Origin: an uncultured Nocardioidaceae bacterium
GTDB lineage: Bacteria > Actinomycetota > Actinomycetes > Propionibacteriales > Nocardioidaceae
Direction of reading: 5' to 3'
Length of the DNA: 43,708 nucleotides
Assembly (NCBI GenBank): GCA_902805865.1
Contig: CADCUK010000108.1
Coordinates: 1 to 43,708 of the forward strand
A model generated the notes under the pieces. It worked only from the letters and a program-made list of their open reading frames with translations, was not told where the DNA came from and did no database searches. Of the stretch, positions 7,566 to 14,271 are shown piece by piece (the stretch's first letter is position 1; each line of letters starts with the position of its first letter). Made by a program: the position numbers and the translations under genes.

Positions 7566-8807
7566 CTAGCGGATCTGCATCCCGGAGATCGTCCGGGCGA
7601 TCACGAGGCGCTGGATCTCCGAGGTGCCCTCGAAGATCGTGTAGATCCTGGCGTCGCGGGCCATCCGCTCGACGGGGTACTCGCGGGTGAAGCCGTTGCC
7701 GCCGAGGATCTGCATCGCGTCACCGGTCACCTTGATCGCGGTCTCACCGGCGAAGAGCTTCGACATCGAGCCCTCGGCCGCCTCGAACTTCTTGCCCTGG
7801 CTGGCCATCCATGCGGCCCGCCACACGAGCAGGCGGGCCGCGTCGATCGAGGTCTTCATGTCGGCCAGCGTGAAGGCGATCGCCTGGTTCTCGATGATCG
7901 GCCGGCCGAACTGGACCCGGTCCTTGGCGTACTCCAGCGCGTAGTCGTAGGCGGCGCGCGCGATGCCGACGGCCTGGGCACCCACGGCCGGGCGGGTGCG
8001 CTCGAACGTCGCCATCGACGGCTGGCTGCGGGTCCCGCCCCCGGTCCCCGAGGAGGAGGCGTCTCGAAGGGCGCGGGCCTTGGCGAGCCGCTCGTCCAGC
8101 TTCTCCTTGCCGCCGAGCAGGCAGCTGCCGGGGATGCGGCAGTCGTCGAGCACGACCTCGGCGGTGTGCGAGGCGCGGATGCCGTGCTTGGCGAACTTCT
8201 GTCCCTGGCTCAGCCCGCGGGTGCCCGACGGGATGACGAAGCTGGCCTGGCCGCGGGCCTTCAGCTCGGGGTCGACGACGGCGGTGATCACATGGATGTC
8301 GGCGATCCCGCCGTTGGTGGCCCAGGTCTTGGTGCCGTTGAGGACCCACTCGTCGCTCGCCTCGTCGTACGTCGCCCGCGTCCGCATCGCCCCCACGTCG
8401 GAGCCGGCGTCCGGCTCGGAGGAGCAGAACGCCGCGATCTTGAGGTCTCCGGGGCTGCCGAACATCTGCGGGACCCACTCGCCGACCTGTGACTCGGTGC
8501 CGGTCGCGGCGACGCTCGCCGCGGCGAGCGTCGTGCCGACGATCGCCAGACCGATGCCGGCGTCGCCCCAGAAGAGCTCCTCCATCGTGATCGGGATGCC
8601 CAGCCCGGTCTCGTCGAAGCTCTGCGTCGCGAAGAAGTCGACCGAGTAGAGGCCGATCTTGGCCGCCTCCTCCAGCACCGGCCAGGGGAACTCCTCCTTC
8701 TCGTCCCACTCCGCAGCCGCGGGACGGACGACGTCCACGGCGAACTGGCGGACCCACTGCTGCAGGTCGAGGTGGTCCTGGCCGAGGTCGAACGAGGGCG
8801 TCGTCAT
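7566..8807 (-). CDS. Acyl-CoA dehydrogenase
   Basis: FAD flavoprotein oxidising an acyl-CoA to the trans-2-enoyl-CoA. 413 residues. The middle domain shows AFCSSEPDAGSDVGAMRT and KTWATNGGIADIHV; the C-terminal domain has YAKDRVQFGRPI, QILGGNGFTREYPVERMARDARI and FEGTSEIQ with the probable catalytic Glu. Oddity: a Ser/Gly/Arg-rich stretch (ASSSGTGGGTRSQPS, about positions 8025-8075) before ATFERTRP is longer than in ordinary family members. Start ATG 8807 is chosen by homology (MTTPSFDLG); no Shine-Dalgarno precedes it, and a TTG at 8828 is possible. Divergent from the SDR gene. Chain-length preference unknown. Confidence 0.92.
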   Translation of the reverse strand: MTTPSFDLGQDHLDLQQWVRQFAVDVVRPAAAEWDEKEEFPWPVLEEAAKIGLYSVDFFATQSFDETGLGIPITMEELFWGDAGIGLAIVGTTLAAASVAATGTESQVGEWVPQMFGSPGDLKIAAFCSSEPDAGSDVGAMRTRATYDEASDEWVLNGTKTWATNGGIADIHVITAVVDPELKARGQASFVIPSGTRGLSQGQKFAKHGIRASHTAEVVLDDCRIPGSCLLGGKEKLDERLAKARALRDASSSGTGGGTRSQPSMATFERTRPAVGAQAVGIARAAYDYALEYAKDRVQFGRPIIENQAIAFTLADMKTSIDAARLLVWRAAWMASQGKKFEAAEGSMSKLFAGETAIKVTGDAMQILGGNGFTREYPVERMARDARIYTIFEGTSEIQRLVIARTISGMQIR

Positions 8808-8856
8808 GATCGCGAAGGGTAGCGGCAACCCGACCCTGGAGGCTGTGCGCGGTCCC

Positions 8857-10891: not shown

Positions 10892-10920
10892 GGAGCGCCG
10901 GGTGTCCCATCCGGCGCTCC
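10892..10920 (+). terminator. Hairpin terminator after the metalloprotease gene
   Basis: GGAGCGCCGG (10892-10901), a 9-nt loop, and CCGGCGCTCC (10911-10920): a perfect 10-bp GC-rich stem. There is no T-run, as is usual in actinobacteria. It ends 4 nt before the ATG of the 952-residue fusion gene, so it may instead influence initiation of that gene. Confidence 0.65.
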
Positions 10921-10924
10921 GGCC

Positions 10925-13783
10925 ATGCGGTTTGATGGCCAGGTGGACGAACCAGACGGACCGACGGTGGAACCGGATCACTCGCTGCCGGAGGGGCTGG
11001 AACGCTACGACCGGCGGGCGTCCGCGTCGGTCACCGTGCCCACCGGGCCTGCGCGCACCCGCGCGCTGCTGGGAGACCTCTCCCGGCTGCCGGACTGGCT
11101 GACCATGCACGCCGCCTGGCGTGGGCCGGCGCCGTCGGGTGCTGCGACCGGGGTGACGTTCACCGAGCAGGTCACGCTGATGGGCATCCCCGCCGACATC
11201 TCGTGGGAGGTCGTCGAGGCGGGCGAGGAGCGACTCGCGCTCGCCGGCGCCGGGCCGATGGACCTCACCCTCGGCCTGTGGCTGACGGTCCGGGCGGCCG
11301 ACGACGGCTCCGTGGTGACGGTGGACGCCGGAGTCGGCGGCGACCCGGTCCAGGGCCCGCTGGGGGCCACGGTTCTCAAGAGCGTCCACGAGGCGCTCGC
11401 CGAGTCGCTGGCGTCCCTGCGCGAGCTGCTCACCGACGAGGCCGCAGCCGGGGTCGACACGACGACGGCTGCCTCGCCGGTCCGCCACCACGCCTCGGGA
11501 CAGCTCCTCGACAGCCGCACGCCGGTGATCGTCGGTGTCGGCCAGGTCGTGCAGCGGCAGCCGGACCTGGACCGGATGGTGCACCCAGCAGCGCTGGCGG
11601 CGAGGTCGATCCGTCGGGCCGCGGAGGACAGCGGCGCACCGGAGGCGTTGCTGGCGGCAGCCGACCAGGTCTTCGCGGTCGCGTCGGCGTCCTGGACCTA
11701 CCGCGACATGGCCGCGGCGGTCGCTGCCGAGCTGGGCATCGACCCGCAGGCCACCGTCGTGTCCGCACGGTACGGCGGTGACGCCGGCCAGGTCCTCATC
11801 AACGCCGCCGGCCAGGCCGTGGCCGATGGCGAGGCGTCCGTCGTACTCGTGTGCGGCGCCGAGGTGGGCGCCACCCTGGCCGCCGCGCAGAAGGCCGGTC
11901 TCGACCCGCAGTGGCCCGACCAGCCGGCCGACCTGGCCCCGGACCGGGTGGTGGGCAGCGAGCGGGAGGCCAACAACGACGCCGAGACCGCGGCGGGGCT
12001 CAGCGTGCCGGTCTACACCTACGCCCTGATGGAGTCAGCCCTGCGTGGCTCGCTGGGGGAGGACCCCGAGACCCATCGCCGCACGATCACCGAGCTGTGG
12101 GCCGGACTGTCGCGGGTCGCCGCGGACAACGAGCACGCCTGGCGGCCCGAAGCAGTCAGCGCGGAACGGCTGGCCACCCCCGACGAGGACAACCGCATGG
12201 TGTCCTCGCCGTACACCAAGCTGCTCTGCGCCAACCTGCAGGTGGACCTGGCGGCGGGAGTGATCGTCACGAGCGTGGCGGCCGCCGAGGCAGCAGGCGT
12301 CCCCCAGGAGCAGTGGGTGTTCCTTCACGCGGGCGCCGCCGCCTACGACGAGTGGTTCGTCTCCGAGCGCGCCGACCTGGCCGCCTCACCGGCGATCCGC
12401 ACGATCGGCGAGGCTGCGCTCCGGCACGCAGGGGTGACGGTCGAGGACATCGAGCACGTCGACCTGTACTCCTGCTTCCCTGCCGCGGTGCAGATCGCGG
12501 CACGGGAGCTCGGTCTGCCCCTCGACGACCCGGCGCGGCCGCTGTCGGTGACCGGTGGACTGACCTTCGCCGGCGGTCCCGGCAACAACTACGGCACCCA
12601 TGCGGTCGCCTCGCTGGTCGGCCGGCTCCGGGCGGAGCCGACGTCGTACGGGCTGTCCACGTCGCTCGGCTGGTTCGTCACCAAGCACGCGATCGGGATC
12701 TACTCCGCACGGCCACCGAGTCGCTCGTACGCCTCGCTGCACCCCGTCCTCGAACCGGGACCGAAGCGCCCGGTGCTCAACGACTACGCAGGGCCGGGTG
12801 TCGTCGAGGCCTGCACCGTCCAGCACGCGCGGGACGGGCAGCCCGAGGCGGCGATCGTCAGCGTCATCACCCCCGAGGGCGGACGCGTGCTCGTCCGGAC
12901 CGCCGAGAAGGACGTCCTCGACGTCGCGGTCCACGACGACCCGCTGGGGTGGGAGGTCGAGGTCGACTCCGGCTCCCTCACCTTCGCCGGCCGCTCACGT
13001 GTCGCGCTGCCGGCACCGCCGCCGATGACCGTGCTGGTGGAGCGGCGCGGCCCGGTCACGATCATCACGCTGAACCGTCCCGAACGGCGCAACGCGGTGG
13101 ACCTGGCAACGGCGGAGCTCCTGGAACGGGTCGTCGACCACTTCGAGGCAGACCCTGAAGCCAGGGTCGCGGTCATCACCGGCGCCGGCGGTTCGTTCTG
13201 CGCCGGCATGGACCTCAAGGCTGCGGCCGCCGGTGAGTTCGCGATGACCGAGCGGGGTGGGCCGCTGGGGATCACGGCTCGCCCGTTGAGCAAGCCGCTG
13301 ATCGCTGCCGTCGAGGGTCACGCGCTCGCCGGTGGCTGCGAGCTGGCGCTGGTCGCCGACCTGGTCGTCGCAGCGCGCGACTCGCAGTTCGGGCTGCCCG
13401 AGCCCAAGCGGGGACTGGTGGCGGCCGCCGGTGGGGTGCTGCGGTTGTCGCAGCGGCTGCCCCGCAACGTCGCGATGGAGCTGGCGCTGACCGGCAACCC
13501 CATGCCGGCGACGAGGATGGCCGAGCTCGGTCTCGTCAACCGGGTCGCGGAACCCGGTGCGGTGCTCGACGCCGCCCTGGCGCTCGCCGAGGAGATCATG
13601 CTGAACGCGCCGCTGTCGGTCCAGGTCAGCAAGCAGATCATCGAGCAGGCGCCCGACTGGTCGGTCGACGAAGCGTTCGCGCGGCAGAGCGACCTGTCGA
13701 TGACCGCGATCCTGTCCGAGGACGCGGCGGAGGGCGTCGCAGCTTTCGCGGAGAAGCGCAGCCCGGTCTGGAAGGGGCGGTGA
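10925..13783 (+). CDS. Trifunctional fusion: SRPBCC domain / thiolase-like domain / enoyl-CoA hydratase
   Basis: Single 952-residue frame. Residues about 28-172 form an SRPBCC (START-like) lipid-binding fold. Residues about 199-690 are an SCP2-thiolase-like acetyl-CoA acetyltransferase (TPVIVGVGQ, PVYTYALMESALRG, GGLTFAGGPGNNYG, then a C-terminal OB-like part). Residues about 700-952 are a crotonase (ITLNRPERRNAV, GSFCAGMDLKA) with both candidate catalytic Glu, E806 in GGCEL and E826 in LPEPKRG. Where a normal thiolase has its nucleophilic Cys, this has RYGGDAGQ (282-289), so ordinary thiolysis is doubtful; DLYSCF (513-518) takes the place of the later active-site motif. The thiolase-like and hydratase parts suggest successive steps on a CoA ester, perhaps hydration then retro-aldol or thiolytic cleavage; that is inference. 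Codon use and frame are continuous. ATG 10925 is used; GTG 10943 is also possible. Confidence 0.88.
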   Translation: MRFDGQVDEPDGPTVEPDHSLPEGLERYDRRASASVTVPTGPARTRALLGDLSRLPDWLTMHAAWRGPAPSGAATGVTFTEQVTLMGIPADISWEVVEAGEERLALAGAGPMDLTLGLWLTVRAADDGSVVTVDAGVGGDPVQGPLGATVLKSVHEALAESLASLRELLTDEAAAGVDTTTAASPVRHHASGQLLDSRTPVIVGVGQVVQRQPDLDRMVHPAALAARSIRRAAEDSGAPEALLAAADQVFAVASASWTYRDMAAAVAAELGIDPQATVVSARYGGDAGQVLINAAGQAVADGEASVVLVCGAEVGATLAAAQKAGLDPQWPDQPADLAPDRVVGSEREANNDAETAAGLSVPVYTYALMESALRGSLGEDPETHRRTITELWAGLSRVAADNEHAWRPEAVSAERLATPDEDNRMVSSPYTKLLCANLQVDLAAGVIVTSVAAAEAAGVPQEQWVFLHAGAAAYDEWFVSERADLAASPAIRTIGEAALRHAGVTVEDIEHVDLYSCFPAAVQIAARELGLPLDDPARPLSVTGGLTFAGGPGNNYGTHAVASLVGRLRAEPTSYGLSTSLGWFVTKHAIGIYSARPPSRSYASLHPVLEPGPKRPVLNDYAGPGVVEACTVQHARDGQPEAAIVSVITPEGGRVLVRTAEKDVLDVAVHDDPLGWEVEVDSGSLTFAGRSRVALPAPPPMTVLVERRGPVTIITLNRPERRNAVDLATAELLERVVDHFEADPEARVAVITGAGGSFCAGMDLKAAAAGEFAMTERGGPLGITARPLSKPLIAAVEGHALAGGCELALVADLVVAARDSQFGLPEPKRGLVAAAGGVLRLSQRLPRNVAMELALTGNPMPATRMAELGLVNRVAEPGAVLDAALALAEEIMLNAPLSVQVSKQIIEQAPDWSVDEAFARQSDLSMTAILSEDAAEGVAAFAEKRSPVWKGR

Positions 13784-14271
13784 CCCGCCGGGTGACGGCG
13801 CTCGAGTTCACCTCCGAGCTGCGGGCCGAGGCCGACGACGTCTGGGCAGCCGCGACCGACTTCGCGGGGATCAACGACGAGCTCTGGCCGCTCATGAGGA
13901 TGACGGCACCCAAGGACTGGCGGACGCTCTCTGCGGACCGGATCGAGCCGGGACGACGGCTCTTCCGGTCGTGGTTGCTGCTGCTCGGCTTCGTCCCGGT
14001 CGACTACGACGACCTGACGATCACCGAGCTCGGCCCCGGGCGCCGGTTCCAGGAGAGGTCGCGGATGCTGAGCGCGACCGTCTGGGAGCACGAGCGTGTC
14101 GTCGAGCCGGTCGGAGCGGGCACCTGCCGGGTCACCGACCGCGTCAGCTTCAGCCCGCGTACGGCTGTGCACGCGGCCGTGCTGAGCCGGCTCGTGCCGC
14201 GGCTGTTCGACCATCGCCACCACCGGCTGCGCCGACGGTTCGGCGGGGCTAGCCCTCCTCGGAGTCGGTGA
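13780..14271 (+). CDS. SRPBCC family protein
   Basis: 163-residue stand-alone SRPBCC/polyketide-cyclase-like protein: RVTALEFTSELRAEADDVWAAATD opens the fold in the usual way, with a central WEHERVVEP strand and a C-terminal long helix (AAVLSRLVPRLFDHRHHRLRRRF). Such folds bind hydrophobic ligands in a deep pocket. The GTG start at 13780 overlaps the stop of the fusion gene (GTGA), so it is translationally coupled to a protein that already contains an SRPBCC domain. It may deliver or shield a lipid-like substrate of that enzyme. The 3' end overlaps the convergent DUF6328 gene by 23 nt. Confidence 0.8.
   Translation: MTRRVTALEFTSELRAEADDVWAAATDFAGINDELWPLMRMTAPKDWRTLSADRIEPGRRLFRSWLLLLGFVPVDYDDLTITELGPGRRFQERSRMLSATVWEHERVVEPVGAGTCRVTDRVSFSPRTAVHAAVLSRLVPRLFDHRHHRLRRRFGGASPPRSR

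Follow-up and report, generated by a model that had tools for sequence, protein, structure and literature searches.

A SRPBCC, thiolase-like and crotonase fusion protein in Nocardioidaceae, a candidate single-chain enoyl-CoA hydratase and retro-aldolase

One reading frame joins four structural domains

We analyzed a 43,708-nucleotide (nt) stretch of DNA from an uncultured, soil-type Nocardioidaceae bacterium (GenBank assembly GCA_902805865.1, contig CADCUK010000108.1; hereafter the window), and in it a gene that an earlier note, made from the sequence alone, had described as a three-part fusion. The gene is a single ATG-initiated frame of 952 codons without an internal stop, encoding a protein of 952 aa (Table 1). 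Matches to Pfam, NCBIfam and, by sequence, the Protein Data Bank (PDB) confirm the three parts and their order from the N to the C terminus, namely a SRPBCC domain, a thiolase-like unit with its own C-terminal β-barrel, and a complete crotonase. Because the middle stretch consists of a thiolase-like fold of ~410 residues and a separate C-terminal β-barrel, the chain comprises four structural domains. When modeled whole as a monomer with AlphaFold2 (AF2), as the earlier note had advised, the chain received a mean predicted local distance difference test score (pLDDT) of 93.6 and a predicted template modeling score (pTM) of 0.90, suggesting that the domains are held in a defined arrangement rather than loosely strung like beads.

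The three-part architecture is conserved in 30 other sampled loci of Nocardioidaceae and Nocardiaceae (53-74% identity), which form one clade, and it is thus regular in these families rather than unique. The same continuous frame recurs in all 30, which excludes chance, sequencing error and mis-assembly as its source. The 30 aligned chains keep W58, H62, GxGP, the motifs of the thiolase-like domain and those of the crotonase. Of 298 sampled genomes of the order, 38 yielded matches at E <= 1e-100, ~32 of them full-length three-part relatives (>=56% identity) and the remainder two-part fusions or stand-alone thiolase-like proteins. Carriers of the chain include members of the same genus, other Nocardioidaceae, and named strains of Nocardia and Nocardioides; the gene is patchy, two congeners being without it. 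Our literature search found no paper describing or characterizing the three-part architecture.

Table 1. Coordinates of the fusion gene, its domains and key residues, and the overlapping downstream gene
Feature	Position in window	Strand	Evidence
SRPBCC / TLP / crotonase fusion protein, 952 aa	10925..13783	+	Pfam and NCBIfam; 30 other loci; AF2
SRPBCC (helix-grip) domain, residues 31-169	11015..11431	+	Pfam Polyketide_cyc2 1.1e-9; 7wa9 2.1e-14
Thiolase-like (TLP) domain, residues 195-600	11507..12724	+	NF006103 2.9e-135; 4egv 4e-69; Foldseek 4egv 2.8e-45
Gly284-Gly285 at the thiolase nucleophilic-Cys site, invariant	11774..11779	+	Alignments including the MsTLP1 Gly102 region; PMC3406046
Y515-S-C517-F518, proposed retro-aldol pair Tyr515/Cys517	12467..12478	+	37/37 TLPs; Ltp2 6ok1 alignment; CtSal mutagenesis, PMC12329534
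TLP1 additional C-terminal β-barrel, residues 609-681	12749..12967	+	PF18313 1.1e-10; AF2 strands 622-659
Crotonase / enoyl-CoA hydratase, residues 702-952, nearest EchA1	13028..13780	+	ECH_1 6.6e-53; PRK08252 9e-105; 6ldz 2.3e-80
Glu806, first crotonase catalytic Glu, invariant	13340..13342	+	Alignments
Glu826, second crotonase catalytic Glu, invariant	13400..13402	+	Alignments
Second, free-standing SRPBCC-like open reading frame	13780..14271	+	Open reading frame list; Polyketide_cyc2 2e-5, just below the curated cut-off

The middle domain belongs to the TLP family and lacks the residues of a thiolase

The structure that matches the middle domain best is that of the thiolase-like protein TLP1 of Mycobacterium smegmatis (MsTLP1; PDB 4egv), both by profile (E 8e-165, versus 1e-22 for the next structure) and in a Foldseek search (2.8e-45 versus 2e-21, with a TM-score of 0.90 over the whole target). 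MsTLP1 is a monomer that shows no thiolase activity and binds coenzyme A (CoA) weakly (dissociation constant 0.6 mM), and in it Gly102, YSCF, GGL and NGG replace the thiolase motifs (PMC3406046). The window protein shares its fold, including the extra barrel (TLP1_add_C, PF18313; 41.7 bits versus a cut-off of 26.1), as well as the family fingerprints YSCF (515-518), GGL (G544-G545-L546, after T543) and Gly in place of the nucleophilic Cys; it is ~31% identical to MsTLP1, which differs in standing alone without SRPBCC or crotonase. The NCBIfam model PRK08257 (NF006103, “acetyl-CoA acetyltransferase”), to whose group MsTLP1 belongs, covers residues 195-682 with a score of 452 bits, where equivalogs need 757, and Pfam adds a weak Thiolase_C_1 match at residues 472-532. 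Judged from its sequence, the middle domain is thus a member of the TLP family, and one that by its score is related to PRK08257 rather than an equivalog of it. Our search of the literature on this fusion, on TLP1_add_C and on Rv1867 yielded nothing beyond the 2012 TLP1 paper.

A conventional SCP2-type thiolase in this position would make the chain a β-oxidation enzyme, as the thiolase fold and the database name might lead one to expect. The nucleophilic Cys of CxS, the His or Asn of NEAF/HDCF, the His of GHP and the Cys of CxG are, however, all missing from the window protein. With Gly-Gly standing for the nucleophilic Cys, YSCF for NEAF/HDCF, GGL for GHP and SLG for CxG, every residue tested speaks against a working thiolase; moreover, the relative of known structure lacks thiolase activity (PMC3406046) and the chain includes no dehydrogenase. 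We therefore rejected this reading, which we regard as very improbable. Of the earlier note's “SCP2-thiolase-like” domain, the thiolase-like fold stands, while the domain appears to be neither an active thiolase nor a plain SCP2-thiolase. The point reaches beyond this gene, as Actinobacteria commonly carry TLPs, and the name given to them in annotation, “acetyl-CoA acetyltransferase,” is contradicted by their residues.

A Tyr/Cys pair in the TLP family parallels that of a thiolase-fold retro-aldolase

To see which positions are retained across the family, we compared 37 TLPs of diverse origin, fused and unfused, down to 34% identity. Tyr515, Cys517, TGG, GG, Asn554 and Lys587 are invariant in all of them, and every three-part fusion aligned reads Y-[SA]-C-F; YSCF also recurs in Nocardia farcinica and in four relatives on alphaproteobacterial plasmids. 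The invariant Tyr and Cys form a YxCx pair of the type described in 2025 for CtSal, a thiolase-fold retro-aldolase that requires Tyr302 and Cys304 of its YDCY motif: Y302F is nearly inactive, and C304A, C304S and C304H show no detectable activity (PMC12329534). In CtSal, too, Gly replaces the nucleophilic Cys of thiolases, and the enzyme showed no malonyl-CoA decarboxylase activity (PMC12329534). In profile alignments, the TLP Tyr falls on the catalytic Tyr of the steroid aldolase Ltp2 (6ok1; LYDHF), and the TLP Cys falls on the HDCF Cys of an archaeal thiolase (6esq).

Three known systems invite comparison. In the CtShy-CtSal bile-acid complex (9myr; PMC12329534, PMC11321319), a hydratase is likewise followed by a thiolase-fold retro-aldolase with the Tyr/Cys pair at the same motif; CtShy, however, is a MaoC hot-dog enzyme and not a crotonase, and the two are separate chains held together by DUF35, whereas the window protein is one chain without DUF35, and its TLP domain resembles CtSal only remotely in sequence. 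Ltp2-ChsH2(DUF35) also uses the thiolase fold for retro-aldol cleavage, with a catalytic Tyr that aligns with Tyr515, but it has YDHF and a second catalytic Tyr344, no Cys, a DUF35 partner, and steroids with C3 side chains as substrates. Finally, the Trypanosoma brucei SCP2-thiolase-like protein TbSLP (5ab4-5ab7) has a thiolase fold with YDCF and has been suggested by other authors to be an aldolase (PMC12329534); it is eukaryotic, unfused and without the TLP barrel. By sequence, the window TLP does not cluster with Sal or Ltp2, being far nearer to 4egv (8e-165) than to Ltp2 (6e-10) or Sal (9myr, 1.7e-4), so that the parallel with Sal is a claim about how the domain works and not about membership. 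By this analogy, TLPs may be retro-aldolases or related enzymes that use the Tyr/Cys pair. The earlier idea of a hydratase coupled to a C-C cleaving domain acting on a hydrophobic CoA ester thus gains support, with the amendment that the cleaving domain is best read as a putative Tyr/Cys retro-aldolase (PMC12329534).

The same alignments bear on a pseudo-enzyme reading, in which the TLP domain would be a scaffold that binds CoA or acyl-CoA and, together with SRPBCC, offers the substrate to the crotonase as the sole active site. MsTLP1 is inactive as a thiolase and binds CoA weakly (PMC3406046), the thiolase fingerprints are lost in TLPs and NGG is unconserved in the fusions, and binding could be the role of both SRPBCC and TLP. 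Yet the six features invariant in 37/37 TLPs go beyond the apparent needs of a scaffold, and stand-alone TLPs without a neighboring crotonase are common, which makes us consider a pseudo-enzyme unlikely, if the strongest of the rivals.

The crotonase is complete and the SRPBCC domain resembles an acyl-binding protein

Pfam ECH_1 spans residues 709-951, and PRK08252, above its cut-off, residues 702-952. As the earlier note had held, the crotonase is complete: E806 and E826 stand at the expected sites and do not vary in 31/31 three-part fusions, the oxyanion-hole motifs FCAGMDL and GGCEL are present, and both Glu are retained in each fusion and each adjacent TLP-crotonase pair aligned. EchA1/Rv0222 (6ldz, 5kjp) is 56-57% identical across the domain, with both Glu and a TM-score of 0.97; it is a stand-alone enzyme, whereas the window crotonase is fused.

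The nearest solved relative of the fused SRPBCC domain is MSMEG_5634 (7wa9), over ~140 residues. This protein binds long-chain C36-52 acyl-AcpM and interacts with the FAS-II machinery that makes mycolic acids (PMC9014085). In the AF2 model, the domain shows the strands and the long helix (147-175) of a helix-grip fold of the MSMEG_5634 type. MSMEG_5634, Rv0910 and Rv1546 (7wa9, 8h2d) have the same helix-grip domain but stand alone.

TLP and crotonase genes recur as neighbors and have probably fused at least twice

We found TLP and crotonase genes adjacent but unfused in two Nocardia-type genomes (loci L116 and L139, the latter Nocardia farcinica), in a further genome (G341) beside an acyl-CoA ligase-like gene, and on Sinorhizobium and Methylobacterium plasmids, the Methylobacterium pair lying behind a gene of the acetate-CoA ligase family. 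Fusions without SRPBCC occur in other Actinobacteria and on plasmids of Novosphingobium and Sphingobium; on these plasmids, the two-part TLP-crotonase fusion is overlapped at its end by a CoA transferase gene (L136, 11752-15909; L138, 11743-15926). In trees of the TLP and of the crotonase domain, three-part and two-part fusions fall into distinct clades with good support, on different deep branches, and in the TLP tree each fusion clade lies beside unfused neighboring pairs. The simplest reading of these separate branches is that adjacent genes became fused on two or more independent occasions and that SRPBCC joined them a single time, in the window lineage. No relatives were found in Rfam or in viruses.

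This distribution bears on a synthetic direction, in which the TLP domain would add an acyl-CoA enolate in aldol fashion, perhaps after malonyl-CoA decarboxylation, the crotonase would dehydrate the product, and SRPBCC would receive an acyl-ACP (acyl carrier protein) or acyl chain. The SRPBCC domain is indeed nearest to an acyl-AcpM-binding protein that interacts with mycolic-acid FAS-II (PMC9014085), and TbSLP, with its YDCF, slowly decarboxylates malonyl-CoA (PMC12329534). However, the unfused pairs and two-part fusions accompany acyl-CoA ligases or CoA transferases, which are activation enzymes of a catabolic type, CtSal does not decarboxylate malonyl-CoA, and the occurrence in Nocardioides and sphingomonads does not follow that of mycolic acids, so we hold a synthetic role to be improbable.

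Some loci deserve separate mention. On both sphingomonad plasmids, a gene of the size of a regulator comes after the CoA transferase gene, and TonB receptors lie nearby; in L136 the putative regulator is annotated TetR, and a Rieske-type oxygenase and a P450 are near as well. These surroundings look like a catabolic operon for some acid. On the Methylobacterium aquaticum plasmid pMaq22A_2p (L137, 9713-16619), the order acetate-CoA ligase family, TLP, crotonase, SDR, thiolase and OB-fold protein is operon-like, and an unfused TLP-crotonase pair thus occurs together with a separate thiolase/OB-fold pair. In Nocardia seriolae NBRC 15557 (L021, 4803-7832), a homologue is split by a change of frame near the barrel into reading frames of 658 and 336 aa, which is a draft error or a decayed gene.

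A proposed hydration and retro-aldol cleavage in one chain

Based on these observations, we propose, at a probability of roughly 0.47, that the gene encodes a one-chain enoyl-CoA hydratase/retro-aldolase with a SRPBCC acyl pocket, similar to Shy-Sal in function but built on a crotonase. We infer the retro-aldol chemistry, the direction of the reaction, the substrate class and the role of SRPBCC. In this model, the C-terminal crotonase, with both Glu and its oxyanion-hole motifs, would hydrate a bulky or branched enoyl-CoA at its α,β double bond, and the resulting 3-hydroxyacyl-CoA would move on to the TLP domain without being oxidized by a dehydrogenase. There, Tyr515 would act as the base on the 3-hydroxyl, the Cα-Cβ bond would break, and Cys517 would protonate the acyl-CoA enolate, as proposed for CtSal, giving acetyl- or propionyl-CoA and an aldehyde or ketone, while SRPBCC would bind or hand over the hydrophobic portion of the substrate. 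A hydratase with a retro-aldolase fits the chain, whereas a hydratase with a thiolase would be incomplete, since thiolysis needs a dehydrogenase in between and none is fused.

Bulky or β-branched enoyl-CoAs would be the substrates to expect in general, since oxidation of the 3-hydroxy products formed from them may be difficult or not possible at all. A link to steroids is suggested by KshA, a steroid ring hydroxylase, which is encoded in 25 of 37 genomes with the fusion versus 5 of 34 without (Fisher p ~1e-5, in genomes that are related to one another) and, within the largest genus alone, in 21/25 versus 4/11 (p 0.008); PaaA/PaaC, used as a control, show no such bias (25/37 versus 26/34). The KshA correlation is only suggestive, and we did not accept steroid catabolism as a certain role on a correlation alone.

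Several observations weigh against the proposal as a whole. The third MsTLP1 motif, NGG, reads SLG (580-582) in the three-part fusions, although the two-part fusions retain NGG. Both CtSal and Ltp2 form complexes with a DUF35 partner, and unless the extra barrel takes its place, the window protein has none: Pfam finds no DUF35 in the fusion chain, which has its own barrel instead, and none among the 25 commonest neighbor families. The fold does not discriminate, as the Foldseek scores of 9myr (Sal) and 6ok1 (Ltp2) resemble those of ordinary thiolases, and Foldseek was set aside as uninformative for telling an aldolase from a thiolase. Our search found no aldolase assay for any TLP, MsTLP1 having been assayed as a thiolase only, and the slow decarboxylation of malonyl-CoA is all that TbSLP shows (PMC12329534). 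As to steroids, 12 of the 37 fusion-bearing genomes are without KshA, none of 30 fusion genes has a KstR or KstR2 consensus site upstream, and the fusion does not lie within a steroid cluster, the KshA of this genome being on another contig.

If the proposal is right, the protein would stand beside the steroid hydratase/aldolase complexes Shy-Sal and ChsH1-ChsH2-Ltp2 as a counterpart built on a crotonase, and might serve as a one-chain biocatalyst for breaking or forming C-C bonds on large CoA esters. The fusion and the independently recurring TLP-crotonase pair provide, for an orphan family, a specific reaction that can be tested and a natural construct of two enzymes. More tentatively still, the TLP family might be a widespread class of Sal-like Tyr/Cys retro-aldolases. 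In Nocardioidaceae and Nocardiaceae it would then have become, with crotonase and lipid pocket, a compact “hydrate-and-split” enzyme in one chain, which for bulky or β-branched CoA esters would offer an alternative to the last steps of β-oxidation that needs no dehydrogenase.

Start codon and gene neighborhood

The first ~18-23 residues of the fusion are not conserved among relatives and residues 1-11 have pLDDT <50, so that translation may begin elsewhere than at the annotated ATG. Between the stop of an upstream M43-type metallopeptidase gene (gene end 10885) and the ATG at 10925, we spotted by eye a perfect 9-bp inverted repeat (10893-10919; GAGCGCCGG / CCGGCGCTC, loop 9 nt). It leaves 5 nt before the ATG, without a Shine-Dalgarno sequence, and a GTG at 10943 or 10967 may be the true start. 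Many three-part fusions (for example L018, L019, L020, L067 and L068) have an extra N-terminal segment before SRPBCC, with the core (D/N/E)PxxVR(D/E), which is absent from the window protein; it could be an amphipathic helix, and the start codons of these relatives are uncertain.

No conserved operon context was found around the three-part fusion among the relatives' loci. In the window, the second SRPBCC-like reading frame overlaps the fusion stop codon by 4 nt, a possible translational coupling, and is probably on the same transcript in this genome; it is not conserved as a neighbor in relatives. The commonest neighbor features are an adjacent TetR-type regulator, mostly divergent, in several loci and an acyl-CoA dehydrogenase gene, which directly adjoins the fusion in four relatives (L018, L076, L079 and L086); the window has one on the opposite strand (7566-8828), a few genes upstream. 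In two Nocardioides-type genomes (G197:C1:1433077-1437586 and G061:C6:93509-97666), the fusion lies directly upstream of phenylacetate genes of the paaA/paaC type, on the same strand.

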